From NCBI GenBank assembly GCA_949295465.1, contig CASFKY010000020.1, forward strand, positions 1 through 35,244: a stretch of 35,244 nt of DNA, written 5' to 3'. Shown here in pieces: positions 11,209-33,344 of the stretch. A model generated the notes under the pieces. The model was not told the origin of the DNA. It saw nothing but the letters and a program-made list of their open reading frames with translations, and did no database searches. Origin of the DNA: an uncultured Oscillospiraceae bacterium (lineage in GTDB: Bacteria > Bacillota > Clostridia > Oscillospirales > Ruminococcaceae). A program made the translations under genes and the position numbers. How positions within the stretch are numbered: position 1 is the first letter of the stretch; each line of letters begins with the position of its first letter.

Positions 11209-12363
11209 TTACTTGGCCATCTCCAGCACGTCGGCAAAGGCCTGGATGGCGGTGCTGGCCTGACCGAAGTCCCGCATCTGCTGGTCCACGCCCAGCTTGA
11301 TGTGAGGCACGCCGGCCGCATCCAGAGCTTTCTTCAGGTAGGGATACTCCATCTCCTCGGGGTCGCAGAACTGCTGCATGAACAGCACCAGACCCTGGGC
11401 GCCGCTCTCCTTGACCAGGTTGGCCACATGCTCGCCGCGGCGGTTGGAGCTGGAGTGCTCGTCGTACAGCAGCACATCGTAGTCCTGGGCGGCGAACTGC
11501 AAAGCCAGCGCCATCATGGGATCGTCGTTCTCGGGCACATCCACCCGGAAAGAGCGGCTCTCATGGGCCACGTCATCGGCGGCAATGGCGATGTGGTTGT
11601 CCTCAAAGATCTTGAGCAGGGAGGGGTTGTCGCAGATGATGCCGCTGGTGACCACCTTGGTGCCCTTCCAGTCGCAGACGGGCAGGGCCTTCAGCAGGCC
11701 GTTCAGCTCGGTGAGCTTGGCGGTGTACTCGTCCTTCAGCATAAACCAGGAGGCCTTCAGCACGGCGCTGCGCATGGTGGGGGTGATCACGTCGCAGTGC
11801 TCGCCGGCCAGCTTCACAAACTCACGGCGGGCAGCGCGGCTGGCGTTGTACACCTTGATGGCCTCTTTCAGGGCCTCGTCGGTGATGGGCGCGCCGCTGA
11901 TCTCCTCCAGCGCATTCTTCACATTGGTGTACTGGTCAATGCAGAACTTCAGGCCGTAGGCCGGCTTGCGGTTCTGGGGATGGGCCAGGAAGATGGTGGG
12001 CATCTTGTGCAGCTTCTTCATGGCCACACGGATGTTCTGGCTCATGGGACGCAGGGTGTCGCAGATGGTGGGAGTGATCACACCGTCCAGCTGATCCATG
12101 GTGCCGTCCAGCAGCATCTCCAGCGCCAGCTGGGCGATGGTGCAGTAGAAGGTGGCGCAGTATTCCTTGGCCTGGCTGATGGTCTTGGTGTTGGAGCCCC
12201 AGATCCCCATGGGGACCATGCCGGCGGCATACACCAGTTCCTCAGGTGCATAGTAGGGCAGCACGCCGATCACCTTTTTGCCGGCGGCCTTGTAGTTGTC
12301 CAGCTGACGGGCGGGGGAAGCCGCAACCGTCTGGAACTCTTTTACGATGCTTTCGATGCTCAT
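11209..12363 (-). CDS. hgdB: (R)-2-hydroxyglutaryl-CoA dehydratase, beta subunit
   Basis: The 384-residue product is close in length to HgdB of Acidaminococcus fermentans (379). Together with HgdA it forms the Fe-S dehydratase that removes water from 2-hydroxyglutaryl-CoA through a ketyl radical. Family features are an N-terminal KVIGVLPYYAPEELVYAAGMVP segment, the cysteines in KEYCATFYC and TICDTLRP, and the C-terminal MQQFCDPEE segment, positions where HgdB-type subunits bind [4Fe-4S]. The stop of hgdA and the hgdB ATG are 3 bp apart, and GGAGG lies within the hgdA end, so the subunits are translationally coupled. It is the last gene of the operon, before a strong terminator. Confidence 0.95.
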   Translation of the reverse strand: MSIESIVKEFQTVAASPARQLDNYKAAGKKVIGVLPYYAPEELVYAAGMVPMGIWGSNTKTISQAKEYCATFYCTIAQLALEMLLDGTMDQLDGVITPTICDTLRPMSQNIRVAMKKLHKMPTIFLAHPQNRKPAYGLKFCIDQYTNVKNALEEISGAPITDEALKEAIKVYNASRAARREFVKLAGEHCDVITPTMRSAVLKASWFMLKDEYTAKLTELNGLLKALPVCDWKGTKVVTSGIICDNPSLLKIFEDNHIAIAADDVAHESRSFRVDVPENDDPMMALALQFAAQDYDVLLYDEHSSSNRRGEHVANLVKESGAQGLVLFMQQFCDPEEMEYPYLKKALDAAGVPHIKLGVDQQMRDFGQASTAIQAFADVLEMAK

Positions 12364-12366
12364 TGT

Positions 12367-13662
12367 TCAGTCCTCCTTGGCAGCCTTGTTCTTGGCGTTC
12401 TGCTCCATGGCTTCCACCAGGCCCTGAACGCGGGTGAGATACTGAGCCTCGTTGAAGTTGCGGGGGTCAGCCTGGTCGCCGTCGAAGCCTGCGCAGGGGA
12501 TGCCCAGATCCTCGGTGAAGCGGCGCTGCATCTCGGCCATGTAGCCGGACCAGGGCTTGCAGCTGCGGTTGTAGTGGACCAGCACGCCGTCCACCTTGTT
12601 CTCCCGGCAGATGCCTTCACGCCAGTCGACGCCCTGCTCGATGCACACCGAGTTGGGAGCCTTGCAGTAGGCGCGGGCCATGCTGTCCAGATCATCGTAC
12701 ACAAAGCCGAAAGCGGGGGCGTACACCACGGCGGTCACGTTGACGCCGTTGGCCTTCAGGGGCTTGAACAGGGCCTTCAGGTTGGGCCAGCAGGGAATGC
12801 CCTCGAACATGATCCGATACTTCTCGGGGAAGGGAGTGGTGGTGGTGCCGTTCTTCACATGCTCTTCCAGCTCGCTGGCCAGCAGCTCAAAAGCCTCGGC
12901 GGTCTGGACCTTGCCGCGGGCGGTCACCACGTCGGCCATGTGGTTGAACAGGTCAAAGCCGCTCATGGGGGCGGGCTTGTACTGCAGATAGTCGCACACC
13001 TTCAGCCAGGCCTTGGCGGTGCGGTTGGCGCACTCGCAGGCATGCTCAAAGCGGGCGGGGTCCATCTTCTTGCCGGCGATCACTTCCAGCTGCTTGATGG
13101 CGTCGTCAAACTGACCCCGGATGTAGGCCACCTGGGAATCGCTGACGGTCACATCGTTGTTGTAGGGCACGTCGATCATGATGAGGGGGATGTTGTGCAT
13201 CCGGGCGATGTTCTCATACCACTTGGTCATGCAGTTGCAGATGTTGTTGCAGCAGAGCACGAAGTCGGGCTGAGGCATACGGCGGGACTCGTTGGTGGTC
13301 TCCACGCCGGCCGAGTAGGCCAAGCTGATGCGGGCGTAGCCGCAGATATCGGCGTCATAGCCCATATCCTCGGCGGCCTGGCACATCCGCTCGCCGTCAT
13401 GCTGGGCGCCGATGCCGGCAGCCTGGTTTTCGGGGTAGACCACGGCCAGGTCCAGGGCCTCGGCAATCTCGCAGGGGAACTTGGAAGAGGACCAGCCCAC
13501 AGGACGGCCGGCCTTCTTGGCCTCCCAGGCGGCGGCGTACACGTCAGACACCACCTTGCGCAGGGCGGCAACGCCGGGGCTCACCGGCTTGGGTGCTTTC
13601 TTTACAGGGGCCGCAGGGGCGGCTTCCTGAGCGGGGGCTGCGTTTTTTTCCATTTCAGCCAT
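12367..13662 (-). CDS. hgdA: (R)-2-hydroxyglutaryl-CoA dehydratase, alpha subunit
   Basis: The 431-residue product belongs to the HgdA/FldB dehydratase-subunit family and is the partner of HgdB. Signature regions include WSSSKFPCEIAEAL with the cluster cysteine, an FVLCCNNICNCMTKWYE segment rich in cysteines, and the C-terminal VLVHYNRSCKPWSGYMAE region. The first 30 residues are an Ala/Pro/Lys-rich extension that looks like a flexible tail. ATG at 13662 is preceded by GGAGG at 11 nt; an internal ATG at 13653 is a possible alternative. The 83 bp between hgdC and hgdA show no terminator. Confidence 0.95.
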   Translation of the reverse strand: MAEMEKNAAPAQEAAPAAPVKKAPKPVSPGVAALRKVVSDVYAAAWEAKKAGRPVGWSSSKFPCEIAEALDLAVVYPENQAAGIGAQHDGERMCQAAEDMGYDADICGYARISLAYSAGVETTNESRRMPQPDFVLCCNNICNCMTKWYENIARMHNIPLIMIDVPYNNDVTVSDSQVAYIRGQFDDAIKQLEVIAGKKMDPARFEHACECANRTAKAWLKVCDYLQYKPAPMSGFDLFNHMADVVTARGKVQTAEAFELLASELEEHVKNGTTTTPFPEKYRIMFEGIPCWPNLKALFKPLKANGVNVTAVVYAPAFGFVYDDLDSMARAYCKAPNSVCIEQGVDWREGICRENKVDGVLVHYNRSCKPWSGYMAEMQRRFTEDLGIPCAGFDGDQADPRNFNEAQYLTRVQGLVEAMEQNAKNKAAKED

Positions 13663-13745
13663 GATATCTCATTCCTCCATAATCTAATGGGTGATAAGTG
13701 TACGGCCCAAGGGCCGCGCGCCTGAAAACAAGGGGCAAGTCTCTC

Positions 13746-14528
13746 TTATTTGGAGACCTTCTGGTAGGCAAAGAGGGCCGCGCCCAGAGCGCCCACATAC
13801 TGGGTGAGGGGCGAGGTGTGCACTTCATGGCCCAGCTGTTCCTGCAGGGCCTGCACCACACCCGCGTTCTGGGCCACACCGCCGGTCATGACCACCATGT
13901 CCTGCACGCCCACCCGGTGGGCCAGGCCCACCACACGGGCAGCCACCGAATGGTGGATGCCGTTGATGATGTCGCACTTGTCGGTGGCCTGAGCCAGCTG
14001 GCTGATGACCTCGCTCTCGGCAAAGACGGTGCAGGTGGAGCTGATGGCCACCTTCTTGGTGGACAGTGCGCCCAGACGGCCCAGGTCGCCCACCTTCACC
14101 TCCAGCACACGGGCCATCACGTCCAGGAAACGGCCGGTGCCGGCGGCACATTTGTCGTTCATCTGGAAGTTGACCATCGCGCCGTTTTCGATGTGCATGA
14201 CTTTCACATCCTGGCCGCCGATGTCAATGACGGTGTGCACCTGGGGGAACAGGAAATATGCGCCGCGGGCATGGCAGCTCAGTTCGCTCATCTGCTTGTC
14301 GGCAAAGCCTTCCAGGGAGTTGCGGCCGTAGCCGGTGGCCAGGATAAAGGCCATGTCTTCCCGCTTCAGGCCGGCGTTTTCCAGCACCTGGTTGATGGCC
14401 CGTTCGGGACCGCTGGTGCCGGCGCCCACATCGATGAGGCTCTTGGCCACCAGTTCCTTGCCGTCCTTGAGAATCACGCATTTGGACGCGGTGGACCCCA
14501 CGTCGATGCCCAGAGTATAAATTGCCAT
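13746..14528 (-). CDS. hgdC: (R)-2-hydroxyglutaryl-CoA dehydratase activator (archerase)
   Basis: The 260-residue product equals the length of A. fermentans HgdC. It is an ASKHA-fold ATPase homodimer with one bridging [4Fe-4S] cluster that pushes one electron into HgdAB per activation, at the cost of ATP. GIDVGSTASK (7-16) is the nucleotide-binding loop and GGQDVK (104-109) the second phosphate motif. Cys127 (in KCAAGTG) and Cys166 (in SSTCTVF) fall at the known cluster-ligand positions of the family. The ATG at 14528 is chosen over the upstream in-frame start at 14585 because the fold begins directly after it and GGAG sits 9 nt upstream. Confidence 0.96.
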   Translation of the reverse strand: MAIYTLGIDVGSTASKCVILKDGKELVAKSLIDVGAGTSGPERAINQVLENAGLKREDMAFILATGYGRNSLEGFADKQMSELSCHARGAYFLFPQVHTVIDIGGQDVKVMHIENGAMVNFQMNDKCAAGTGRFLDVMARVLEVKVGDLGRLGALSTKKVAISSTCTVFAESEVISQLAQATDKCDIINGIHHSVAARVVGLAHRVGVQDMVVMTGGVAQNAGVVQALQEQLGHEVHTSPLTQYVGALGAALFAYQKVSK

Positions 14529-14598
14529 TGGTTGTTTCTCCACTTTTTGTTCAGGATCTCCCGCCCGGGGGCGGGGTGCGGGCACATGCCCTTACAGA

Positions 14599-14682
14599 CT
14601 TTTTGGCGCGGCGGGCCTGCCGCCGCGCCAAAAGCCCTTATATCGTTGCTTTTAGGCTGTTTTCCGGCTCTGCCGGAAAATC
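14599..14682. repeat. Two inverted repeats between gcdA and hgdC
   Basis: TTTTGGCGCGGCGG (14601-14614) pairs with 14620-14633, and TTTTCCGGC (14660-14668) pairs with 14672-14680. Both have Ts on the 5' arm and As on the 3' arm, so neither is a standard terminator for the operon strand. They sit right after the gcdA stop inside the operon and may set mRNA stability or partial attenuation between the decarboxylase/transferase part and the dehydratase part. Confidence 0.55.
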
Positions 14683-16446
14683 TTATTTGTGGCCGTTGTC
14701 GTAGTCGCGGATCATCCGGGGGATCAGCATCTGATGGAAGGGGCAGATGCTCTCCGGGTTCTGGTAGACAGAATCGGCAAACGCAATGATGTAGTTGCGC
14801 AGCACAGGCATATCCACCACTTCATCCACGAAGCCCTGTTTGGCGCAGAAGGCGGGCTTGGACTTCTCGTTGTAGTCCTCGATCAGCTCGTTCATCTTCT
14901 TAATGGTGTCATCCAGGGGCTTGCCGGCCTTCTGATCCTTCACCAGACGGCCGGTGTACATGGCAGCCGCGGCGGTCTCGCCGTTCATCACGTTGATCTC
15001 GGTGGCGGCGGTGCCCAGGCTGAAGGCGTTGTTGTCGTTGCCCTGAGGGCCGCCCAGCACATAGTGGGCAGCGGCGGTGCCGCGGCGCAGGGTGATCTCC
15101 ATCATGGGCAGCTTGGAGCTCTGGATGGAGTAGATCAGGCTCTGGCCCAGACCCAGCAGCTCGGCCTTCTCGGCGTCGTCGCCCACGTCGATGCCGGTGG
15201 TATCCTGGATCCAGATCATGGGGATGCGGTCACGGGCGCAGAGGGTGACGAACTCGTTCATCTTGATGAGGCCCTGGCGGTACAGCTTGCCGCCGGCGCC
15301 GATGGATCCCTTGCCGTTGTCGCCCTTGTACTCGGGGTAGTTCATGAAGAAGCCCTGCACGTTGGCCACAACGCCCACCAGCAGGCCGTCTACCTTGGCC
15401 AGGCCGGTGATCATCTCGGGGCCGTAGCCCTTGCGGAACTCCATGAACTCGCTGCCGTCGAACAGGCGGCCGATGACACTGTACATGTCATAGGGGCGCT
15501 TTTTGTTCATGGGCACCAGGTCATACAGCTCGTTGGGGTCCTGGGCGGGAGCCTTGGGGTCGTCTACCCGGAAGAAGTCCAGGTTGTAGGTGGGCAGCAT
15601 ATCCATGTACTTCTTGATGCCGGCCAGCACGCCCTGCTCCTCGGCGTACACCTCACGGAAGAAGCCGGTCTCATTGTAGTGGATGGCCACACGTCCCGGA
15701 GGATCGGTACGGACGCCCTCGCTGCCCTTGATGAGGGCCTCGGCGCCCTCCTGGTCCACATAGCCCTTGGGGTTCATGCCGCCCACGATGCCGGCGCCGC
15801 CCACGGCCATGTTGGCCTTCTGATGAGCGATCAGGATGGTGGGGCTGATGGAGTGATAGCCGCCGCCGGCGGGGTTGGTGCCGTAGATGCCCACGATGAC
15901 GGGCACGCCCATCTGGTTCAGCTCGCTGTTGCGGTAGAAGGGAGTGCCGCCGCCCCGACGGTTGGGGTACACCTTTTCCTGCTCGTCCAGCTCCACGCCG
16001 GCGCAGTTCAGGATGTACACCAGGGGGATGCGCAGCCGCTTGGCAGTGTCGCTGCCCCGCAGCAGGTTGTCGGCCTGGCCGGGCACCCAGGTGCCGGCGT
16101 GCTTTTTGTTGTCGGAGGCAATGATCACAGCCCACTTGCCGTTGATGCGGCCCAGCCCCTTGAGGATGCTGGTGGAGCCGTTCTTATTGTCCTGGGGGTT
16201 GTAGATGGTGTTCAGAGGGCACCAGGTGCCGGGATCTACCAGCTGCTGGACCCGCTGAGAGGCGGTCATCTGACCCTTGGCGTTCATGTCCGCGTCGGAC
16301 TTGCCGGCCGCAATGGCAGAGGCGGCAAGCGCGTGGATTTCTTCCTCAACTTTTTTCAGCTCTTCGACATTGGTAGGGTCCGCCTTGACGGCCTTGCCCA
16401 CTACGCCCATCTTCTGAAAATAGCTGGGCATCGAATAGTCACCCAT
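14683..16446 (-). CDS. gcdA: Glutaconyl-CoA decarboxylase, alpha subunit (carboxyltransferase)
   Basis: The 587-residue product has exactly the length of A. fermentans GcdA. It transfers the carboxyl group from glutaconyl-CoA to the biotin of GcdC, giving crotonyl-CoA. It has two crotonase-fold halves: the N-terminal half includes KWAVIIASDNKKHAG and NRRGGGTPFYRNSELNQMG, and the C-terminal half includes PMIWIQDTTGIDVGDDAE, HYVLGGPQGND and the late DNAFSLGTAATEI-like region. ATG at 16446 has AAAGGAG at good spacing. It lies between gctB (50 bp) and hgdC (154 bp with two hairpins). The enzyme is the soluble, membrane-attached part of the Na+ pump. Confidence 0.96.
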   Translation of the reverse strand: MGDYSMPSYFQKMGVVGKAVKADPTNVEELKKVEEEIHALAASAIAAGKSDADMNAKGQMTASQRVQQLVDPGTWCPLNTIYNPQDNKNGSTSILKGLGRINGKWAVIIASDNKKHAGTWVPGQADNLLRGSDTAKRLRIPLVYILNCAGVELDEQEKVYPNRRGGGTPFYRNSELNQMGVPVIVGIYGTNPAGGGYHSISPTILIAHQKANMAVGGAGIVGGMNPKGYVDQEGAEALIKGSEGVRTDPPGRVAIHYNETGFFREVYAEEQGVLAGIKKYMDMLPTYNLDFFRVDDPKAPAQDPNELYDLVPMNKKRPYDMYSVIGRLFDGSEFMEFRKGYGPEMITGLAKVDGLLVGVVANVQGFFMNYPEYKGDNGKGSIGAGGKLYRQGLIKMNEFVTLCARDRIPMIWIQDTTGIDVGDDAEKAELLGLGQSLIYSIQSSKLPMMEITLRRGTAAAHYVLGGPQGNDNNAFSLGTAATEINVMNGETAAAAMYTGRLVKDQKAGKPLDDTIKKMNELIEDYNEKSKPAFCAKQGFVDEVVDMPVLRNYIIAFADSVYQNPESICPFHQMLIPRMIRDYDNGHK

Positions 16447-16496
16447 GATGGTTACTCCTTTTTATTCTGTAAGTATTTTCCCGCGGGGTATCCCGA

Positions 16497-17300
16497 TTAC
16501 TCCTTGGGAACCTTGATGAAGGCCTGGCCGGGGTCGATCTCCTCCCGGATCAGCCGGATGATGTCGGGGCCGGGGCCCTCCATCAGCTGGGCGCGGGAGA
16601 CGTCCACCTCAAAGCCGGTGTTGGCCTGCACCATCTCGGGGCTGGAGAAGGGATAGTAGTAGGCCAGGTACATCCGCTTGGTCTCTTCGTCGAACTTCAT
16701 GATGCCCAGATCGGTAACCACCATCTGAGGGCCGCGGTTGCCGGGCAGGCCGGCGCGCTCACGGCCTCCGGGGCCATCCATCCAGCCGCAGCTGGTGATG
16801 TAGTCGATCTTCTCCATAAAGCGGCGCTTCTGGTGCTGCATCATGATGATGGTGTTGCAGTAGGTGGCGATGCCGTTGGCGCCGCCGGAGCCGGTGAACC
16901 GGGTCTGGGGCTTGACATAGTCGCCCTTGCCGTAAATGCAGGTGGAGTTCACATTGCCGTAGGGGTCGATCTGGGCGCCGCCGATGAAGGCCACCAGCCG
17001 ATCCTCGTCATGGAGCCACTCGTTGGCCTCAAAGCCGATGAAGCGGATGTTGGGCCACTGCACGGCGCAATGAGCCATGAAGCGGTTGTCGCCCACGCTG
17101 CGGGGCACCTCCACGGGGGAGCAGTCCATCAGGCCGCTCTCCACAATGGGGTGGCAGGAGGGGCAGATGGCCCGCTTGGCCAGGGAAGCGCCGATCAGGG
17201 GCAGGCCGGTGCCGACGATGACGATCTGGTTTTCTTTGATATTCTTCGCAATGGCATATGCCTGCATTTCCTGTTTGGTGTACTTAGTATAGTCAGCCAT
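16497..17300 (-). CDS. gctB: Glutaconate CoA-transferase, subunit B
   Basis: The 267-residue product resembles A. fermentans GctB (266 residues) along its whole length. With GctA it moves CoA from acetyl-CoA to (R)-2-hydroxyglutarate or glutaconate. The catalytic glutamate that forms the CoA thioester is Glu54 in PIVESGLMDCSPVE, at the same number as in the characterised enzyme. FIGGAQIDPYGNVNS and the FTGSGGANGIA oxyanion-hole region are present. The start at 17300 (MADYTKY) is chosen because GGGAGG lies 9 nt upstream; a TTG 9 nt earlier is less likely. The gap to gctA is 21 bp. Confidence 0.96.
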   Translation of the reverse strand: MADYTKYTKQEMQAYAIAKNIKENQIVIVGTGLPLIGASLAKRAICPSCHPIVESGLMDCSPVEVPRSVGDNRFMAHCAVQWPNIRFIGFEANEWLHDEDRLVAFIGGAQIDPYGNVNSTCIYGKGDYVKPQTRFTGSGGANGIATYCNTIIMMQHQKRRFMEKIDYITSCGWMDGPGGRERAGLPGNRGPQMVVTDLGIMKFDEETKRMYLAYYYPFSSPEMVQANTGFEVDVSRAQLMEGPGPDIIRLIREEIDPGQAFIKVPKE

Positions 17301-17321
17301 TTCTCTCAACCTCCCTGCTTC

Positions 17322-18419
17322 TCAGTGTCTGGTGGAATAGCCCAGATGAGGCTCATTCTTCAGGCGCATCAGACGGGAGCCGCCGATCTTGTCCAGCAGC
17401 TCGTCGTTATCCTTCACGCTGTAGACCCACTTGTCCAGGAAATCCTTGAAGGTCTCGGGGATGGCTACGCCGTCCGCGGCATCCTTGGCAGCCTTGGCAG
17501 CCTTGGCGGCAGCGTCGGCCAGCTTGGGATCGTCAGGGGCTTTCTCGGCGGCCTTGGCAGCCTTGTCCGCGGCCTTGGCCAGCTGAACCTTGGCGTCCTC
17601 GGCATCCTGATACTTGGAAGCCTTGTCGTACTCCTTCAGAGCATGGGAGTCGTTGTCGTAGTAGTTGTAGCACTGGCTGGGCCATGCACCATAGGGAGCA
17701 TGCACCACCGCGCTGATGCACTCGCCGAAGATGCGGGTGAGGGTGGGGTCGCGGCGGATGTACTCATCGCTCACCAGTTCCTCACAGGTGACGATAACCT
17801 TCTTGGCAGCCACAGCGATGTCCACATCGTGGAACTCGTCGCCCTCGATGATGCAGGTGCCGTCGGGAGAGGCCTTCTGCACATGGATGATGGCGGTGTC
17901 CAGCTTGGGCACAGGCACAGCCACAACCTTCTCGCCGGGATTGAAAGGGTTTTCGATCTCCACGCACTTCAGATCGTCCACCTTCTCCAGGGTCTTGCGC
18001 TGCTCTTCACTGATGCCCCAGTACTTCATCAGGCCGGAGCCCTGCATCAAACGCACAGGCAGGAAAGGCAGGCCCAGGCTGGCGGCATGCAGCTGGAGCA
18101 TGAGGACATCCTGAGAGTAGTCCTCATAGATCAGCTGGCCCTTCTCGATGGCAGCACGGAACCGACGGGACACGTTGGTATAGCCGGAGTTGGCGGTGTA
18201 GCAGTTGATATAGGTCTTGACCCGGCCTTCGCCGATCAGCATATCCCAGTCACCGCCGGCAGGGCCGGCCCAAACGGTAAAATCCTTCTGACCCTGGCGC
18301 AGGATCTCATAGACCGCAGCGTAGGGTTTCCGGTTGGTGGTGAAACCGCCAAAGGAGATGGTATCGCCGCTCTGAACATACTTTTCGACTGCGTCATGCA
18401 GACTCATAACCTTGTTCAC
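17322..18419 (-). CDS. gctA: Glutaconate CoA-transferase, subunit A, with an Ala/Lys-rich insertion
   Basis: The 365-residue product has the GctA fold, including SGDTISFGGFTTNRKPYAAV near the N-terminus, AGPAGGDWDMLIG (51-63), RLMQGSGLMKYWG and the end segment GGSRLMRLKNEPHLGY. A. fermentans GctA has 320 residues; the extra length is explained by residues about 272-318, which consist almost only of Ala, Lys, Asp and Glu (AKAADKAAKAAEKA type) and could form a charged helix. The start is GTG at 18419 with AGGAGG 7 nt upstream. The 56 bp gap to gcdB has no terminator. GctA lines the active site completed by Glu54 of GctB. Confidence 0.94.
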   Translation of the reverse strand: MNKVMSLHDAVEKYVQSGDTISFGGFTTNRKPYAAVYEILRQGQKDFTVWAGPAGGDWDMLIGEGRVKTYINCYTANSGYTNVSRRFRAAIEKGQLIYEDYSQDVLMLQLHAASLGLPFLPVRLMQGSGLMKYWGISEEQRKTLEKVDDLKCVEIENPFNPGEKVVAVPVPKLDTAIIHVQKASPDGTCIIEGDEFHDVDIAVAAKKVIVTCEELVSDEYIRRDPTLTRIFGECISAVVHAPYGAWPSQCYNYYDNDSHALKEYDKASKYQDAEDAKVQLAKAADKAAKAAEKAPDDPKLADAAAKAAKAAKDAADGVAIPETFKDFLDKWVYSVKDNDELLDKIGGSRLMRLKNEPHLGYSTRH

Positions 18420-18475
18420 AATAAAACCTCCTATCAGCGCAAACGCTGAAATTTTTGTTCAGGCTGCCCCAGAAA

Positions 18476-19639
18476 TCAGACCTGGGGGAACATGATCAGG
18501 AAGAAGCCGGCAGCTACCGCGCTGCCGATCACGCCGGCCACGTTGGGGCCCATGGCATGCATCAGCAGGAAGTTGGTGGGATCCGCCTCTTTGCCCACAT
18601 TCTGAGAAACGCGGGCGGCCATGGGCACGGCAGACACGCCGGCCGAGCCGATGAGGGGATTGATCTTGCCGCCGGTGACCAGATACAGCACCTTGCCCAG
18701 CACGACGCCGCCCACGGTGGCAAAGGCAAAGGCCACCAGACCCAGAGCGATGATGCCCAGCGTCTTGGGAGTGAGGAAGTTGGCGGCTTTGGCAGTGGCG
18801 CCCACAGTCAGGCCCAGCCAGATGGTGGAGATGTTGCACAGCGCGTTCTGGGCGGCGTCGGACAGACGATCCACCACGCCGGACTCACGGAACAGGTTGC
18901 CCAGCATCAGGCAGCCCAGCAGGGGAGCCACGGCGGGCAGCAGCAGGCTGCAGAACAGAACCACAAAGACAGGGAAGACGACCTTCTCCACCTTGGCCAC
19001 CTTGCGCAGCTGGGTCATCTTGACCTTGCGCTCCTTCTTGGTGGTGAGCAGCTTCATGATGGGAGGCTGGATCATGGGAATCAGCGCCATGTAGCTGTAG
19101 GCGGCCACCGCGATGGCAGGCACCAGTTCGGGGCAGAGCTTGGTGGCGGTGTAGATGGCCGTGGGGCCGTCGGCGCCGCCGATGATGCCGATGGCGGCGG
19201 ACTCAGCGGGGCTGAACAGACCGCTCATGTTGGCCAGCACAAAGGCCACATAGATGCCGAACTGAGCGGCAGCGCCCAGCAGCAGGCTGATGGGGTTGGC
19301 GATCAGGGGGCCGAAGTCGGTCATGGCGCCCACCGCCAGGAACATGATACAGGGGAACAGCTCGCTGGCCACACAGGCATTGTACACCACGCCCAGCACG
19401 CCCTGGGTAAAGTGGGGCAGCCCGTCGGCGCCCATGGTCTGTTCCATCATGCCGGTGAGAGGCAGGTTGGTGAGGAAAATACCAAACGCAATGGGGAGCA
19501 GCAGGAGCGGCTCAAATTTCTTGACGATGGCCAGGTACAGAAGCACAAAGCTGACCAGGATCATGAGCCCCTGCTGCCAGGTGAGAGCCGCAAAGCCGGA
19601 TTGTTCCAGCAGCTCTCCCATGACAGTAAAGAAATTCAT
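18476..19639 (-). CDS. gcdB: Glutaconyl-CoA decarboxylase, beta subunit (Na+-translocating carboxybiotin decarboxylase)
   Basis: The 387-residue product is a polytopic membrane protein of the OadB/MmdB/GcdB family with about nine hydrophobic helices. It decarboxylates carboxybiotin on GcdC and moves Na+ out of the cell. Family signatures are [20 protein letters not shown] (the GGADGPT region with the Na+-linked Asp), [30 protein letters not shown] and the C-terminal [16 protein letters not shown] followed by [16 protein letters not shown]. Its ribosome binding site AAGGAGG overlaps the gcdC stop codon (12 bp gap), which implies coupling. Confidence 0.96.
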
Positions 19640-19651
19640 TCCGCGCCCTCC

Positions 19652-20095
19652 TTAGTTCAGGGTGACCAGAACGGCGTCAGTCTCCACAGTATCGCCCTTC
19701 TTCACATTGATGGAGGCCACGGTGCCGGCCACAGGGGCCACGATCTCGTTCTCCATCTTCATGGCTTCCAGCACCACCAGGGTCTGGCCGGCGGTGACAG
19801 CCTGGCCAACGGTGCAGGGTACATCCAGGATGTTGCCGGGCATGGGGGCGGTCACGGTAGTGGCGCCGGCAGCGGCGGGAGCAGCGGGCGCGGGAGCCGG
19901 AGCGGGCGTAGGCGCAGCGGCAGGGGCGGGAGCCACCACAGGAGCCGGGGCGGGGGCCGCAGGAGCGTTCACCACGATGGGAGCGGCAGGAGCAGGAGCC
20001 GCAGCGGCGTTGGCGCGGGTCAGGGGGGTGAAGTCATCGATGCGGGCAACCTCGGCCTCATAACGCTTGCCGTTCAGGGTAATCACATATTTCAT
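19652..20095 (-). CDS. gcdC: Glutaconyl-CoA decarboxylase, gamma subunit (biotin carrier)
   Basis: The 147-residue product ends in a biotinyl domain (about 78-147) with the motif EAMKM, in which Lys113 carries biotin. The N-terminal 25 residues form a short anchoring domain, and residues about 30-77 are an almost pure Ala/Pro linker that lets biotin swing between GcdA and GcdB. This three-part layout is that of GcdC and similar Na+-pump biotin subunits. AAAGGATCG precedes the ATG. It lies 89 bp after gcdD and 12 bp before gcdB. Confidence 0.95.
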
Positions 20096-27350: not shown

Positions 27351-28358
27351 TTAGATGGTGGCCAGGATCTTCTTGGCCAGCTCCAGGCGATCCTCGGGAA
27401 CATTCAGAGGTACGCAGCAGCCGGGGCCCAGGATCAGGCGGCCATCGGGCACCTGATTGATGGCGTCGGCCAGCTGAGCCTTCACTTCCTCATCGGTGCC
27501 GTTGAACAGGGTGGTGTACTCCTCCACGCCGCCGATCAGGATCTTGTCGGGGCAGAGCTTGCGGCCGGTGGCCAGGTCGAAGTCCTCAGCCAGACGGTCA
27601 TGCCAGTTGATGGCCTGCACCGGGTACTTGGAGAGCAGCTCGAACATGGGGGCCTCGCCGTGCATGTGCATGATGTTGAACCACATGCCCTTGCAGGCTT
27701 CCAGAACGGCGCGGTCGGTGGGCTCGCCCCACTTCTTGTACTCTTCCAGGTTCATCTTGTCGTAGGTACCCAGCTGGGTGGCCAGGAAGATACCGGCAGC
27801 GCCGGCCTCGGCCAGAGCCTTGACGTAGCGGATGGTGGTCTCGGTGATGACTTCCAGGCCAGCCTTGAACTCTTCCTCATGGCTGCGGGCATGGATCAGC
27901 ACGTTGTCGCCGCCCATCTTCATGGCGGTGGTCAGGGGGTTGAAGACGGTGACCACCACGGGCACCTGGCCCTTGTAGTGATCGGCCAGGATGCGGGTGC
28001 ACTCCACATTCTCACCCAGGGTCCCCTTGGTGGGATCCAGCACGGTGAGCTTCTTCCAGTCGGGAGCCTTCTTGATGAGCAGCTCTTTCAGGGTACCCAC
28101 CTTGCTGGTGGTGTTGGGCCACTCGCAGTCCCGCACGGGCCAGGCGATCTGAGCACCCCAGTCCTGGATGGAGTTGTAGCCATGGTAAGTGATCTTGACA
28201 AAATCCCAGTCGAAGCGATCCTGGAACTGGATGCACTTTTTGACCAGGTCGGTGGTGGGTTTCTCGTCATAAGGAGGGAAATGTTTCCACAGGTTGATGG
28301 CGGTGCTGTCCAGTTTCTTGCCGGCCAGCAAAGCTTCAATGCGTTCGATATGAGTCAT
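27351..28358 (-). CDS. Uroporphyrinogen decarboxylase (URO-D) superfamily protein, second paralogue
   Basis: The 335-residue product has the URO-D/MtaA TIM-barrel. It includes TVFNPLTTAMKMGG near 137, IMHMHGEAP (229-237) and GPGCCVP (311-317). The corresponding HxC...C site binds zinc in methylcobamide:CoM methyltransferases (MtaA, MtbA); here the middle position is His (HMH). It is a paralogue of the preceding gene 28532-29557. Clostridia that use such proteins often run corrinoid-dependent demethylation, but no corrinoid protein gene is in this window. ATG at 28358 is set by GGAGGAG at 8 nt; longer in-frame extensions are not conserved. It is not expected to be the heme-pathway HemE. Confidence 0.85.
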   Translation of the reverse strand: MTHIERIEALLAGKKLDSTAINLWKHFPPYDEKPTTDLVKKCIQFQDRFDWDFVKITYHGYNSIQDWGAQIAWPVRDCEWPNTTSKVGTLKELLIKKAPDWKKLTVLDPTKGTLGENVECTRILADHYKGQVPVVVTVFNPLTTAMKMGGDNVLIHARSHEEEFKAGLEVITETTIRYVKALAEAGAAGIFLATQLGTYDKMNLEEYKKWGEPTDRAVLEACKGMWFNIMHMHGEAPMFELLSKYPVQAINWHDRLAEDFDLATGRKLCPDKILIGGVEEYTTLFNGTDEEVKAQLADAINQVPDGRLILGPGCCVPLNVPEDRLELAKKILATI

Positions 28359-28437
28359 CTTGATCTCCTCCTGTTTCCAAAATTTTTTAATTGGTATGAT
28401 GCGAACCACCAAGCGGCTTCTGCCGCCTCCCCCCGAT

Positions 28438-28470
28438 AGCTGCCCGGCGCTTGGCGTTCGCCGGGCAGCT
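28438..28470. repeat. Strong hairpin between the two UroD-like genes
   Basis: AGCTGCCCGGCG (28438-28449) pairs perfectly with 28459-28470. No T run follows on the minus strand, so it may stabilise the upstream mRNA rather than terminate it. A smaller CCTGC/GCAGG palindrome lies near 28505-28515. Confidence 0.55.
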
Positions 28471-28531
28471 CCACCGTGATGAAAGGGGAGGAAATAGAAC
28501 TCCTGCCTGCGCAGGAAAGTCCTGACAGAAA

Positions 28532-29557
28532 TTAGCGGGCATACTGCTCGCAGGCCATGCGAGCGGCATAGAAGTGGGACTCCACGGAATCGGGATGTGC
28601 CACGCAGCCGGGGCCAACCATCAGGCCCTTCTTGCCGGCAGCCAGGATGCCCTCGCCCACATGAGCGGTGATCTGGTCGGCGGTGTACTCGGGATTGCCA
28701 AAGATGGCGCTCTCGTTGATGCCGCCCAAGAAGCACTTGTCGGACAGCTTGCGGGCCTCGGCCATGGTGGGAGCCACCCAGCGGTCATGCCAGTTGATGA
28801 CTTCGCCGGGGTACTTGGACATGATATCCCAGTAGGTCTTGTCCCCATGGATGTGCAGCACGTTGAAGTAGGTCTTGCCCTCGTAGGCCTGGGCTACACG
28901 GATATCGTAGGGCTCGGCGAACTCAGCATGCACTTCACGGCTCACAGCGCCCTCACGGCAGGTCTGGCTGGCATAGAAGAAGCCGTCCACACCGGCCTCG
29001 ATGTTGGCCTTGATGAAGTTGATCTGGGTCTGGGTAATGGCTTCCAGGCCCTTCTTCACAGACTCAGGGCAGGTCTTGATGGACTTGTTCAGGTTCTCCA
29101 TACCCACCAGCTTGGCCGCGACGGTCAGGGGGTTGAAGATGGTCTGCAGGATGGGCAGCTCCTGCATCTGGGGGTCACGCTCCTGCTTGAGCAGGCGGCG
29201 GGTCTCCACAGCGATCTGCAGGGTCTTGCCGTAGGTGCCGTAGATGGCGGGGAAGACAGGCAGGTTCTCCCACTCCTCAGCGGTCAGATCCCGGAAGAAA
29301 CGCTCCTTCACAGGCTGGGTGGGGGTGCAGAAGAAGTTGCAGCTCAGGCCGTAATCGGTGGCCACATAGTTGCCGTAGGGGCACATTTTGATGAAGTCAA
29401 AATCGTACTTCTTGGCAACCCGGATCATTTCCTCAGCCAGGGAGATGGGGTCCTGGTCTTTATGAGGCATATGGTACCAAATGGACAGGGGTACACGGTC
29501 CACATCCTGCTTTTTGATAGCGGCAATCACACGCTCCTTGTGGGTCATCTGATTCAT
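28532..29557 (-). CDS. Uroporphyrinogen decarboxylase (URO-D) superfamily protein, first paralogue
   Basis: The 341-residue product starts with MNQMTHKERVIAAIKKQDVDRVPL, the usual start of URO-D-like methyltransferase proteins. The barrel has QTIFNPLTVAAKLVG, VLHIHGDKTYWD (233-244) and GPGCVAHP (315-322). As in its neighbour, the zinc-type motif reads H-I-H and not H-x-C. The chain is about the length of MtaA (340). AAAGGAGAG precedes the ATG. It has its own sigma-A promoter at 29641-29669 and is the first of two tandem paralogues, which may work as a pair or on two related substrates. Substrate unknown. Confidence 0.85.
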   Translation of the reverse strand: MNQMTHKERVIAAIKKQDVDRVPLSIWYHMPHKDQDPISLAEEMIRVAKKYDFDFIKMCPYGNYVATDYGLSCNFFCTPTQPVKERFFRDLTAEEWENLPVFPAIYGTYGKTLQIAVETRRLLKQERDPQMQELPILQTIFNPLTVAAKLVGMENLNKSIKTCPESVKKGLEAITQTQINFIKANIEAGVDGFFYASQTCREGAVSREVHAEFAEPYDIRVAQAYEGKTYFNVLHIHGDKTYWDIMSKYPGEVINWHDRWVAPTMAEARKLSDKCFLGGINESAIFGNPEYTADQITAHVGEGILAAGKKGLMVGPGCVAHPDSVESHFYAARMACEQYAR

Positions 29558-29640: not shown

Positions 29641-29669
29641 ATTATACTCTCTTTTTTTCCCGATGACAA
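29641..29669 (-). promoter_or_regulatory. Sigma-A promoter of the UroD-like operon
   Basis: On the minus strand TTGTCA (29664-29669), a 17-bp spacer and a perfect TATAAT (29641-29646). It lies just after the cyuA stop (29690), so the UroD-like genes need not depend on the sigma-54 promoter. Confidence 0.8.
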
Positions 29670-29689: not shown

Positions 29690-30967
29690 TCAGGTGCGGT
29701 TCAGCATCAGGTGCAGGATCACGTTGTCGGTGTTGTTCATGCCCTTCACCGAGACGGTGGCGATGTTCTGCATGGTCAACTCTGCCTTGCTGCTCAGGAT
29801 GCCGTTGTCGCTGGGGATCTCCACATGGTTCAGGGCCAGCTCGCTGGCATCGATGGCGGCGGCGGCGGCGCAGGCCACCTTCATGCTGCAACCCATCTTG
29901 GCGCCGTCACACAGCATGCCGGTGATGCCGGCGCTCATGTTGTTGATGGCAGCCTTCACCTGCTCGTTGGTGCCGCCCTGCATATAGGTCAGGCCGGCGG
30001 CAGCGCCCATGCCGGCGGCAACGCCGCAGCCGCACACGGGGGACAGAGGTCCAAGGTAGACCTTGATGTAGTTGGTGACCAGATGGCTCAGAGCCACGGC
30101 CCGACGGATCTTGTCGTTGTCGATGCCCTTGCCCTGGCCGATGATGTTGATGGGGACAATGGCGGTCATGCCGTGGTTGCCGCTGCCGGCGCTGCTCATA
30201 ACAGGCAGGGGGCTGCCGGCCATACGGTTCTCACTGCCGCCGGCGGTGTAGGCCTTGGCCTTGCCCTCCAGGCTGGAGTCCTTCTTCAGCAGGGTGTTGC
30301 AGATGCCCAGACCACGGTCAATGGCGTCGGTGGCGATCTTCATGTTCATGTCGATGCCGTCCTGCATGAAGGCGATATCCTCGCTGGGAACCTCGTTGGC
30401 AAAGGCGATCATGTCGTCGATGCTGTACTTCTTGATCTCAAACTTGATGCCGGTGGTGGAAGTCTCGGCGTCGTCGCAGTTGGTGGGGGCGGCGCTCTGC
30501 TTCACGACCTTGCCGTTGACAGCTTCATAAGTAATGTTGGTGTGGGCACCCTCGATGACCACGCGGCTCTCGCCGCCCTGGCCCTTGGCGTCTACAGAGA
30601 TGTACAGGCCGGGGGCGTCCTCTTTCAGGCGCAGATCGATGCAGCCGCTGGCAGCCACAGCGCGGGCGGCGTCAATGGCCTCGGGGGTCACGTCCTTCAG
30701 CACTTCCAGCTTGTACTCAGACTTGCCGATCTCCAGCGCCAGCGCGCAGGCAAACACGATGCCCCGCTCGGGGGTGCCGGGGATGCCCACGCCCAGACCG
30801 TTCTTCAGCACGTTTTTATCCACATACACCACCATGGAGTCCACCTTGGTGCCCAGCAGCTCCTTGGCGCGGGCAACGGCGTAGGCCACGGCGCCGGGCT
30901 CGGTGCAGCCCAGGGCGGGTACGACTTGATCTTTCAGAATAGCGATCATGGTCTCGTTTCTGTTCAT
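29690..30967 (-). CDS. UPF0597 / L-cysteine desulfidase (CyuA, formerly YhaM) family protein
   Basis: The 425-residue product belongs to the family that includes E. coli CyuA and archaeal L-cysteine desulfidase, related to the alpha subunit of Fe-S L-serine dehydratase. Expected Fe-S cysteines are seen in ALGCTEPGA (Cys21), SPVCGCG (Cys312, Cys314) and MLCDGAKMGC (Cys353, Cys360). Characterised members split L-cysteine to pyruvate, ammonia and sulfide; others may act on serine or related amino acids. The ATG at 30967 follows an AGGAGAG site. The upstream region carries a sigma-54 promoter and the divergent gene encodes a sigma-54 activator, so expression should be substrate-induced. Confidence 0.88.
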   Translation of the reverse strand: MNRNETMIAILKDQVVPALGCTEPGAVAYAVARAKELLGTKVDSMVVYVDKNVLKNGLGVGIPGTPERGIVFACALALEIGKSEYKLEVLKDVTPEAIDAARAVAASGCIDLRLKEDAPGLYISVDAKGQGGESRVVIEGAHTNITYEAVNGKVVKQSAAPTNCDDAETSTTGIKFEIKKYSIDDMIAFANEVPSEDIAFMQDGIDMNMKIATDAIDRGLGICNTLLKKDSSLEGKAKAYTAGGSENRMAGSPLPVMSSAGSGNHGMTAIVPINIIGQGKGIDNDKIRRAVALSHLVTNYIKVYLGPLSPVCGCGVAAGMGAAAGLTYMQGGTNEQVKAAINNMSAGITGMLCDGAKMGCSMKVACAAAAAIDASELALNHVEIPSDNGILSSKAELTMQNIATVSVKGMNNTDNVILHLMLNRT

Positions 30968-31055
30968 AATCGATCTCTCCTCTATCTATCTTTCTTCGAT
31001 TTCGGGACTTATCCAGAGGCGGGAGCCATCTCCCGGCCTTTCACAAAAAGTATAA

Positions 31056-31072
31056 AGCAACCACTGTGCCAA
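31056..31072 (-). promoter_or_regulatory. Sigma-54 (-24/-12) promoter of the CyuA-like gene
   Basis: On the minus strand the sequence TTGGCACAGTGGTTGCT has the -24 GG (31069-31070) and -12 GC (31057-31058) exactly 10 nt apart, matching the TGGCAC-N5-TTGC consensus. The transcript would start near 31045 with a leader of about 78 nt. Confidence 0.9.
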
Positions 31073-31138
31073 ATTCCACTTGGAGCAAAAATAATTGTCT
31101 TTTTTTACATTTTTTCTTCTTTTTATCCCGGTTTTAGA

Positions 31139-31149
31139 GTCAATTTGAC
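31139..31149. promoter_or_regulatory. Candidate upstream activator site for the sigma-54 promoter
   Basis: GTCAATTTGAC, an 11-bp perfect inverted repeat with one central base, is about 95-105 bp upstream of the predicted start, a usual distance for sigma-54 activator sites. The 31080-31270 stretch is otherwise AT-rich and gene-free. Confidence 0.45.
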
Positions 31150-31273
31150 ACAAAATCCTCCAAAAATTTGCTTTTTTTCCATTTTTCTCTCTTTTTCCCG
31201 CTTTCTCTGCCCCCTCTTTATTCTCAAATCTAATAAATTTTCTCAAAAAAGCATCCAAAATTTTTGCGGCTTA

Positions 31274-31282
31274 TGTTATAAT
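31274..31282 (+). promoter_or_regulatory. Extended -10 promoter of the sigma-54 activator gene
   Basis: TGTTATAAT gives a TG-N extended -10 with TATAAT at 31277-31282; no clear -35 is seen. The leader to the ATG at 31590 would be about 300 nt. Confidence 0.55.
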
Positions 31283-31383
31283 AAGGTAGCGGCAGCGTTC
31301 CCCCTCTTTGGGAGAGTTCCGGGCAGCCAAAAACTCTGTTGCCGGGGATTTTCTCTGATTTTGTGGAATTTCGGGGTTCTTTT

Positions 31384-31410
31384 GAGGAAAAATGAGGGGG
31401 ATTTTTCCTC
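31384..31410 (+). promoter_or_regulatory. Leader hairpin upstream of the sigma-54 activator gene
   Basis: GAGGAAAAAT (31384-31393) pairs perfectly with ATTTTTCCTC (31401-31410). The rest of the leader (31410-31540) is GC-rich with further inverted repeats. No named riboswitch was recognised and no convincing leader peptide seen. Confidence 0.45.
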
Positions 31411-31589
31411 CTGCCGCCGTTTTGGGCCTGTTTTCAGCCCTTTGGCCCCTGTTTTGTCCCGGCTCCCCTCTCCCGTCCCATACCCTTCGGGCCGGCCCGG
31501 GCGGCGCCGGGTCGCACCGGGGCCCCGAATTTTTCTTCTCAAATTTAAGAATATATGAAATTGCGGTTTTCCGCAGAAAGCGAGACTTT

Positions 31590-33344
31590 ATGAGCGTACT
31601 GGATCTGGTAGTACCAGAGCTGGAATATCTCTCCAACACTCTGGCCTCGGTGCTGGGCCTGGAGATCACCATTGTGGACAGCAGCCTCAAGCGGCTGGTG
31701 GGCACCGGGCGGCTGGGTGCCGGGGTGGGCAAATCGGCCCCCAAGGGATCCGCCTTCAGCCAGTGTATTGAGACCGGCCGCCACTTGTTTGTGGAGGAGC
31801 CCCGCCGCTCCCCCGTGTGCAAGAATTGCAGCCACCGGGATCAGTGCACCGAGGAGGTGGAGTTCTGCATCCCGGTGCGGTACAACAGCAAGATCGTGGG
31901 GGTGCTGGGCATGTGCGCCTTCACCGAGGCGGCCAAGGCCGAGATCATCCGCAACCGGGACAACATGCTGGCCTTTGAGCACCAGTTCAGCCGGCTGATC
32001 ACCACCATGCTGCGGGAGCGGGAGTTCGAGTCCATCCTGGAATACCACTCCAGCGAGCTGATGACCCTGGTGAACAGCCTGGACGAGGGGGTGCTGATCC
32101 TCAGCAAGAACATGGAGGTGCTCACCGCCAACCGGCATATGTTCCGCATCCTGAACATGAACGAGCGCCCCCTCAACAGTTCCACCCACCTGCGCTTGCA
32201 GGACATCCTGCCGGAAAAGCTCTTTGCCCAGTTGCAGCAGAAGGGGCAGGCCGGGCAGATCGGCCCGGTGACCCTGAACGGGCAGGAATATCTCATCAGC
32301 ATCAACCCCATTGAGGTGAAGAGCGGCCGCACCGGGCTGATCCTGCTCTTCTCCGATTTTACCAAGATGCGCCAGTCGGTGATGAAGGCGGACAAGGACA
32401 AGAGCATCGTCACCTTTGACGACATCCTGGGAGAGTGCGAATCCATCCAGCGGGCCCGCCGGCAGGCCCAGCAGATCGCTGAATATGATGTGTCGGTGCT
32501 GCTCACCGGCGAGACCGGCACCGGCAAAGAGGTTTTCAGCCAGGCCATCCACGGCGCCTCCAACCGCAAGGGCTCCATCTTTTTGCCGGTAAACTGCGGG
32601 GCCATCCCGGAAAATCTCATTGAGAGCGAGATGTTCGGCTATGAAAAGGGGGCATTCACCGGCGCCTCCAAGACCGGCCGCCCCGGCAAATTTGAGGTGT
32701 GCAAGGATGGCACCCTCTTTCTGGACGAGATCGGCGATCTGCCCCTGACCATGCAGGTAAAACTGCTGCGGGCGCTGGAAAACAAGGAGATCGTGCGGGT
32801 GGGCGGCTATACCCCCATCCATGTGAACCCCCGCATCATCGCCGCCACCAGCCGGGACCTGGAAAAGATGCTCAAGGAGCACACCTTCCGGGAGGACCTG
32901 TTTTACCGGCTGAACGTGGTGTCCATCCAGATCCCGCCGCTGCGGGAGCGGGGCTACGACATCATCATCCTGGCCCGGCATTTTCTCCACCGCTTTGCCG
33001 AGACCTACAGCAAGGAGATCCGGGGCTTCACCCCCGAATGTGAAAACCTCCTGCTGCGCTACCCCTTCCCCGGCAATATCCGGGAACTGCGCAACCTGGT
33101 GGAATACGCGGTGATTTTTGAAAAGGGAGATCTGGTGGGGGAAGAGATCATCCGCTCCAAATTGCAGCCCAGCGCCGAAATGCCCCGGCAGAATCTGGCC
33201 CAGCTGACCAGACAGTATGAGCGGCAGGTGATCTTGCAGCAGGTGCGGGAGATGGGCGATACCGCCGAGGGCAAGCGGGCCGCCGCCAAGCAGCTGGGCA
33301 TCAGCGTGGCCACCCTCTACCGCAAGCTCAGCGAAGAGGACTGA
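31590..33344 (+). CDS. Sigma-54-dependent transcriptional activator with Cys-rich sensor and PAS domain
   Basis: The 584-residue product has an N-terminal GAF-like sensor (about 1-145) with Cys77, Cys80, Cys86 and Cys93 clustered in SPVCKNCSHRDQCTEEVEFC, then a PAS domain (about 150-260). The AAA+ domain (about 275-505) shows Walker A GETGTGK (307-313), the sigma-54 contact GAFTGA (354-359), Walker B LFLDEIGD (376-383) and the FREDLFYRLN arginine-finger region. A Fis-type helix-turn-helix GKRAAAKQLGISVATLYRKL (561-580) ends it. All residues for open-complex formation are kept. ATG at 31590 is chosen because the sensor begins there; its ribosome binding site is weak. It should activate the divergent sigma-54 promoter; the cysteines may bind a metal, cluster or thiol. 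Confidence 0.93.
   Translation: MSVLDLVVPELEYLSNTLASVLGLEITIVDSSLKRLVGTGRLGAGVGKSAPKGSAFSQCIETGRHLFVEEPRRSPVCKNCSHRDQCTEEVEFCIPVRYNSKIVGVLGMCAFTEAAKAEIIRNRDNMLAFEHQFSRLITTMLREREFESILEYHSSELMTLVNSLDEGVLILSKNMEVLTANRHMFRILNMNERPLNSSTHLRLQDILPEKLFAQLQQKGQAGQIGPVTLNGQEYLISINPIEVKSGRTGLILLFSDFTKMRQSVMKADKDKSIVTFDDILGECESIQRARRQAQQIAEYDVSVLLTGETGTGKEVFSQAIHGASNRKGSIFLPVNCGAIPENLIESEMFGYEKGAFTGASKTGRPGKFEVCKDGTLFLDEIGDLPLTMQVKLLRALENKEIVRVGGYTPIHVNPRIIAATSRDLEKMLKEHTFREDLFYRLNVVSIQIPPLRERGYDIIILARHFLHRFAETYSKEIRGFTPECENLLLRYPFPGNIRELRNLVEYAVIFEKGDLVGEEIIRSKLQPSAEMPRQNLAQLTRQYERQVILQQVREMGDTAEGKRAAAKQLGISVATLYRKLSEED

Follow-up and report, generated by a model that had tools for sequence, protein, structure and literature searches.

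The window analysed here is the whole of contig CASFKY010000020.1, a stretch of 35,244 nucleotides from a draft genome (assembly GCA_949295465.1; G000; 2.15 Mb, 84% complete) of an uncultured member of Fournierella, a genus of gut bacteria in the Oscillospiraceae that is now named Allofournierella. Between positions 29690 and 33344 it carries a gene of the cyuA/cdsB type, encoding a putative L-cysteine desulfidase, and a divergent gene for a sigma-54 activator of the CdsR type, in the places where an original prediction, made from the letters alone, had put a UPF0597/CyuA-family gene and its regulator. The genes, the predicted promoter and activator sites, the linkage of the two genes and the conserved residues can be read from the DNA itself. 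It is probable (about 0.72) that the unit is a CdsR–CdsB-type cysteine switch in Fournierella whose activator also drives a second unit, encoding a carrier and an M20 amidohydrolase. A relative of the same genus, G001 (99% complete), also carries the regulator. The features of the unit are listed below.

29690–30967, minus strand: cyuA/cdsB-type L-cysteine desulfidase gene, 425 amino acids (Pfam, structure relatives, key residues)
31056–31072, minus strand: predicted -24/-12 promoter TTGGCACAGTGGTTGCT, zero mismatches to the consensus
31139–31149: inverted repeat of 11 bp, lying some 77 bases before the -24 box (tentative, by eye)
31221–31236, read on the minus strand: predicted activator site TTATTAGATTTGAGAA, two mismatches to the palindrome TTATCANNNNTGATAA, 164 bases upstream of the -24 box
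31240–31255: possible half-site, 19 bases further upstream, kept in F. massiliensis
31536–31551: second predicted activator site, next to the start of the regulator (pattern and matrix)
31590–33344, plus strand: CdsR-type sigma-54 activator gene, 584 amino acids, with GAF-like cysteine domain, PAS, AAA+ and Fis-type helix-turn-helix (HTH) domains
31764–31868, plus strand: codons of Cys59 and of the cluster Cys77-x2-Cys80-x5-Cys86-x6-Cys93
32649–32666, plus strand: GAFTGA loop, at residue 354 of the regulator

Desulfidase gene and sigma-54 promoter

The minus-strand gene product matches the Pfam family SDH_alpha (PF03313, 1.4e-56), and its only solved relatives with E up to 0.01 are 9fsl and 9he0, both L-cysteine desulfidase sequences. 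The former is taken to be MmCyuA of Methanococcus maripaludis, since the residues named in the published account sit in it at a constant offset. In the alignment to this best structure, Cys21 and Glu23 correspond to the catalytic Cys23 and Glu25 of MmCyuA, and Cys312, Cys353 and Cys360 to the cysteines of its [4Fe-4S] cluster, with Cys314 as an extra cysteine. The active-site and cluster residues are thus common to the two proteins, whereas the 9fsl chain has 400 residues and the window enzyme 425. According to the excerpts of PMC12647591, the catalytic pair is essential in the Methanococcus enzyme and is not conserved in serine dehydratases. Among 46 aligned homologous stretches of at least 350 amino acids (one genome may count twice), Cys21 and Glu23 are kept in all 45 that cover these positions, Cys312 and Cys353 in 46 of 46, and Cys360 in 45 of 46. 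The predicted product therefore has both the catalytic Cys/Glu pair and the three-cysteine cluster of a CyuA/CdsB desulfidase.

Ahead of this gene, 108 bases are counted from the first base of the -24/-12 promoter TTGGCACAGTGGTTGCT through the last base of the cyuA ATG. By sequence alone the promoter is not beyond chance: at up to one mismatch, two -24/-12 matches were observed in the 35 kb against 0.98 expected, and there are three perfect matches to TTGGCAYNNNNNTTGCW in the 2.15-Mb draft genome. Positional conservation lifts it above chance, because a near-consensus site is kept upstream of orthologous cyuA genes. Of the 17 divergent loci outside Fournierella, 13 were compared (all but L153, L159, L161 and L162). 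In each of these, the best-matching sequence ahead of cyuA departs from the consensus by one base at most, and in seven it is perfect; a perfect -24/-12 sequence also precedes cyuA in F. massiliensis and in G1311. The consensus promoter proposed for the CyuA-like gene was thus recovered.

A small G+C-rich hairpin is possible in the cyuA leader (31017–31039), and F. massiliensis has one at about this position, with another sequence (both by eye); an Rfam search of the window gave no match. Directly downstream of cyuA, on the same strand, are two URO-D/MtaA-like methyltransferase genes (27351–29557). It was thought unlikely that they share an operon with cyuA, as a TTGTCA-17-TATAAT promoter-like sequence, seen by eye at 29641–29669, precedes them.

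The divergent regulator and its sensor cysteines

The best start of the regulator is at 31590, from which its homologues align. The Sigma54_activat domain (3.9e-68) and the AAA lid both exceed the Pfam cut-offs, whereas HTH_8 (20.7 against a cut-off of 22), PAS_8, and GAF_2 in the sensor (23.3 bits against 28.6) fall below them. With its AAA+ domain, GAFTGA loop and putative DNA-binding HTH, the gene has the make-up of a complete sigma-54 activator, as had been proposed, and that of a CdsR-type activator, including an adjoining desulfidase gene with a predicted -24/-12 promoter. An identity with PrdR was rejected, because the regulator reached only 389 bits against the NCBIfam equivalog cut-off of 795, with a best stretch of only 146–582.

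The window genome contains rpoN. A search for sigma-54 activator domains found the regulator as the only strong match in G000 (E 3e-69; next 1.7e-8) and in G001 (E 1e-68; next 2.6e-8). Of the weaker matches in these two genomes one was read, in G000:C6 (L035:4069-5901): a 610-amino-acid regulator with an activator-like AAA+ remnant lacking GAFTGA, which is probably independent of sigma-54. Among 41 relatives, strong rpoN matches (E up to 6e-39) occur in four genomes and weak ones in five further genomes, two of these above the family cut-off; the strongest activator matches (E up to 5e-72; next 1.2e-30) are in the same four genomes. Across the family, 36 of 396 genomes have a sigma-54 activator at E up to 1e-40, and only G000, G001 and G1311 (50%) have matches to the regulator near 50% identity or better, the next full-length match being at 35%. 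This patchy presence suggests horizontal transfer of the regulator.

Regulator and cyuA adjoin in 35 of 44 genome-contig loci, 18 of them divergent and 17 co-directional; no C. difficile locus was among the matches of the single genome-contig scan for relatives of the regulator. A quickly built tree of 86 regulators, with SH-aLRT as its only measure of support, places the two Fournierella proteins in a clade of 21 (support 100), most of whose members are cyuA regulators in divergent arrangement; they come from Tissierellia, Lutispora, Tepidanaerobacter and others. Another sigma-54 activator, resembling the window regulator only outside the sensor, is divergent to cyuA in two further genera of the family (L031 and L030, from G020 and G009). 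A perfect -24/-12 sequence precedes an aminotransferase-class gene there, presumably MalY-like; in G020 an SDF symporter gene and a RidA-like gene follow, and rpoN adjoins cyuA.

The compact C-x2-C-x5-C-x6-C cluster that had been noticed in the sensor, beside PAS, is present as C77, C80, C86 and C93. Loss of these cysteines in close homologues would have counted against the original prediction, and they proved to be invariant, together with a fifth cysteine, C59, in 16 of 16 close aligned orthologues. The sensor of the F. massiliensis An912 regulator is 96% identical to that of the window. Over more loci, C59 is replaced by serine in some (L149, L150, L152 and L169), and when 55 regulators of greater diversity were aligned, invariance among the cysteines was limited to C77, C80 and C86. 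The widest survey took in 88 distinct regulators out of 126 loci, the remainder being without a match, partial or duplicates; all 88 were collected by similarity to the window regulator, and 86 of them made up the tree above. All 88 have C77, C80 and C86, and 65 have C93. In 46 of these 88 no cyuA was seen alongside, a number to be read with the short flanks of many such loci, in which cyuA may be missed. C93 occurs in 38 of the 40 regulators linked to cyuA, divergently or co-directionally, against 27 of the 46 without. Neighbours of members lacking cyuA include a trimethylamine methyltransferase-like gene (L182) and genes for a pyridoxal phosphate enzyme and an M20 peptidase (L029). The core is not universal, being absent from two more distant homologues, L277 and L278; another locus, L185, was discarded as no true relative. 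The idea that only regulators of cyuA carry the four cysteines was rejected on these counts. As a family trait the cluster fits a structural metal or cofactor site, and it is more likely such a site (Zn or Fe-S) of a broad sensor family than a site of cysteine specificity.

Predicted activator sites and a probable second target unit

The palindrome TTATCANNNNTGATAA is common to the orthologous intergenic regions upstream of cyuA. Copies with up to three mismatches form pairs in all 13 divergent loci compared, at a spacing of 20 bp (21 bp in one of them), and in 9 of the 14 co-directional loci compared, at 19–21 bp (out of 17; L180, L181 and L183 were left out). Of the other co-directional loci, L177–L179 carry another palindrome, and no pair was found in L171 and L184. 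The geometry of the pairs resembles that of the two inverted repeats of C. difficile. The motif was first spotted by eye, in output that included the Fournierella regions, and as a predicted activator site upstream of cyuA it is new in this analysis.

The activator-site pattern matches twice in the window, both times in the intergenic region between cyuA and the regulator (0.02 matches expected), and none of 100 shuffles reached two. The TTATTAGATTTGAGAA site stands at the same 164-base distance in F. massiliensis. In the half-site at 31240–31255 only the TGAGAA half matches, and its matrix score is negative; the sites of the window are weaker and more degenerate than those of the orthologues. 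Where two inverted repeats some 150–220 bases upstream are the mark of CdsR, the window has one full site at a fitting distance and only this poor half-site. The site at 31536–31551 makes autoregulation of the regulator possible. The 11-bp repeat at 31139–31149 lies near the position at which many orthologues carry a further activator site, and F. massiliensis has an inverted repeat of another sequence there (by eye).

Near-consensus -24/-12 sites number 16 in G000 and 33 in G001, and only two in each genome, those of cyuA and of the carrier gene, have an activator site 40–300 bases upstream. The second promoter occupies orthologous places in G000:C73 (one mismatch, in the -24 box) and G001:C4 (perfect); the intergenic DNA there has largely diverged, yet the promoter core and the activator site are kept (by eye). 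The probability of two such pairs by chance is 2.7e-4 in G000 and 1.1e-3 in G001, values that are optimistic and partly circular, because the pattern was loosened to admit the carrier-gene site after the sites had been seen. A fairer test is a matrix trained on 24 loci without Fournierella: the second-unit sites score 21.0 bits, tied at the top of 266,499 positions, and none of 300 shuffles reached this, in a background that includes L267–L270, which were fetched because of such sites.

The second unit encodes a DcuC-family carrier (YfcC-like, below the NCBIfam cut-off) and an M20 amidohydrolase. At other loci M20 genes stand behind cyuA itself, with a membrane protein gene between them (L146, L153 and L154) or without it (L159 and L161, Sedimentibacter-type). 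In G1311, of the window's own family, the order is cyuA, membrane protein, M20, M20 (L280). At L143 the membrane protein gene follows cyuA and the contig then ends, and L163 and L183 have a symporter of the SDF type instead. This operon membrane protein (398–401 amino acids, 10 hydrophobic segments) had no usable Pfam match. The solved structure closest to the L280 M20 enzyme is YxeP of Bacillus subtilis, which we take to be ScmP, one of that species' N-acetylcysteine deacetylases. The excerpts of PMC12757645 describe three N-acetylcysteine deacetylases of B. subtilis as M20 enzymes.

A strong and a weak activator site, 21 bp apart, were also seen at a third orthologous place (G000:C14, L268:3589-3625; G001:C3, L267:3835-3871), upstream of an oxidoreductase gene and an FAD/DctM-like gene. 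Two perfect -24/-12 sequences, at G000:C10 and G000:C17, were rejected as targets, having no activator site 40–300 bases upstream; no locus homologous to them was found among the G001 matches compared. That of C10 (L241:5799-5815) lies about 230 bases upstream of a gene for a hydrogenase-like iron-sulfur protein (by eye).

Away from the unit, a minus-strand cluster at 11209–20095 of the window encodes two HGD-D dehydratase subunits, an activator ATPase, a carboxyltransferase, two CoA-transferase subunits and the beta subunit of a Na+-pump decarboxylase (Pfam), next to a biotin-carrier-like open reading frame recognized by eye. In make-up it resembles a pathway of glutamate fermentation through 2-hydroxyglutarate.

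The proposed cysteine switch and known systems

In the presence of ample cysteine, or of a close derivative, the activator, bound to TTATCANNNNTGATAA-type sites some 160–190 bases upstream, would use ATP to enable sigma-54 RNA polymerase to open the DNA at the -24/-12 promoter; pyruvate, ammonia and sulfide would then be formed from cysteine by the [4Fe-4S] desulfidase. Most likely the second unit is driven by this activator too; its DcuC/YfcC-type carrier and M20 amidohydrolase would import and hydrolyse N-acyl- or peptide-bound cysteine and so feed the desulfidase, as the M20 genes behind cyuA elsewhere and the likeness of the L280 enzyme to YxeP suggest. The inducer, the substrates of carrier and M20 enzyme, the metal and role of the cluster, and activation itself are the parts of this scheme that we infer. 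Induced breakdown of cysteine, as originally predicted, agrees with the sigma-54 promoter, the divergent activator, rpoN, the 35 of 44 linked loci and the desulfidase residues; the novelty claimed for such a regulator does not stand, since, in the excerpts of PMC5767170, CdsR of C. difficile has already been described.

Several points weigh against this interpretation. The window lacks a proper 20-bp pair of sites, having one with two mismatches and a poor half-site, and its genome is a draft. Orthology to C. difficile CdsR (CD630_32330) is argued from gene pairing, architecture and sites; that CdsR is called type 2 in the excerpts of PMC7438776, according to which control of cdsB by SigL was also unseen under the conditions of that later study. 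On the side of the second unit, the solved structure closest to the Fournierella M20 is an IAA-amino acid hydrolase, YxeP coming third; this M20 shares just 37% identity with that of the operons, the M20 family takes many substrates, and the Fournierella carrier is of another family than the operon membrane protein. M20 genes follow cyuA in just 5 of the 35 linked loci, some of whose contigs end early. M20-DUF3100 genes lie near the regulator at four Clostridium loci (L165, with cyuA; L168, L175 and L176, without), with no -24/-12 or activator site ahead of them, and neither promoter nor site precedes the M20 gene behind the L148 regulator; for want of sigma-54 signals all these genes were set aside as evidence. 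The third place in C14 and C3 has no -24/-12 sequence within two mismatches in a usable position.

Other explanations of the same observations were weighed. That the activator controls cyuA only, the pairing at the carrier/M20 promoter being due to chance, is unlikely in our view. It would agree with the published CdsR regulon, which in Clostridium and Clostridioides consists of cdsB only (Nie et al., PMC6615313, excerpts), with the scarcity of M20 genes behind cyuA and with the frequency of single -24/-12 matches by chance. Such a reading has to account, however, for promoter and site paired at orthologous positions in two species despite diverged intergenic DNA, for the top rank of these sites under a matrix trained on other genera, and for the low, if optimistic, chance values. 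That the main substrate is another amino acid (serine, threonine or homocysteine), with the switch serving that compound, is very improbable: the Pfam family bears the name of the serine dehydratase alpha chain, but the Cys/Glu pair is of the desulfidase type, unconserved in serine dehydratases, and a separate SDH_alpha gene lies elsewhere in the genome, at G000:C9.

A role of the cysteine cluster as signal receiver, through a metal, an Fe-S centre or reactive thiols sensing sulfide, redox state or metal, with cyuA as a stress or sulfur-balance response, we regard as improbable as well. The invariance of the four cysteines and C59 in the close orthologues speaks for it, as do VnfA and AnfA of Azotobacter, sigma-54 activators whose N-terminal GAF domain has conserved cysteines; according to the excerpts of PMC9542535 both proteins depend on these cysteines to be active, and an Fe-S cluster may be present in VnfA. 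The targets of these proteins differ from those of the cyuA regulator. Against a receiver stand the occurrence of C77, C80 and C86 in all 88 regulators, including the 46 beside which no cyuA was seen, the spread of C93 beyond cyuA-linked regulators, the replacement of C59 by serine in some close homologues, and the failure of Na2S to induce cdsB in C. difficile (PMC5767170, excerpts). The cysteines are conserved in close homologues, and the original reading of the cluster as a thiol or sulfide sensor for this enzyme is weakened by the presence of the core in regulators with no cyuA seen and by cysteine, not Na2S, being the inducer in C. difficile. A literature search aimed at the cysteine cluster returned no title or abstract describing one of this kind.

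The unit itself is of a known kind; new and testable are the proposed widening of its regulon and the broad spread of the family with this cysteine sensor. A more far-reaching reading, which we offer only tentatively and think rather doubtful, is that Fournierella has kept sigma-54, so far as can be judged, for one activator and two promoters that together serve a full pathway for conjugated cysteine (a cysteinyl peptide, N-acetylcysteine or a compound like a mercapturate) by uptake, deacylation and desulfidation to sulfide, under a sensor of a new metal or Fe-S GAF type found in many anaerobic Bacillota. The switch would bring the conversion of cysteine to sulfide in a genus of gut commensals under a single predictable control; the carrier/M20 branch, if real, would tie sulfide in the gut to conjugated forms of cysteine, N-acetylcysteine among them. 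The TTATCANNNNTGATAA motif could serve to locate CdsR-type regulons across Clostridia and Tissierellia, and the widely shared cysteine core makes the question of the sensor cofactor testable on one purified domain.

Among known systems, CyuR is a different kind of activator from the sigma-54 type. In Escherichia coli, the CyuR–CyuPA system combines a cysteine-inducible CyuA with an importer for anaerobic use of cysteine (PMC9040844, excerpts); inducible CyuA together with an importer recalls the scheme proposed for Fournierella, whereas no M20 enzyme is named in those excerpts. The closest likeness is to CdsR–CdsB of C. difficile and Clostridium. For C. difficile, the excerpts of Gu et al. (PMC5767170) report a sigma-54 promoter before cdsB, weaker expression of this gene when sigL or cdsR is mutated, a response to cysteine as inducer but none to Na2S, and dependence on a region that contains inverted repeats at both -179/-190 and -200/-211. 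Both systems would join a PAS/AAA+/HTH activator with GAFTGA to an adjacent desulfidase gene, a -24/-12 promoter and distant inverted-repeat sites. The window unit differs in its divergent arrangement, in the predicted second target (carrier and M20) in Fournierella, and in the cysteine cluster of its regulator, a feature unmentioned in the excerpted descriptions of the C. difficile protein.

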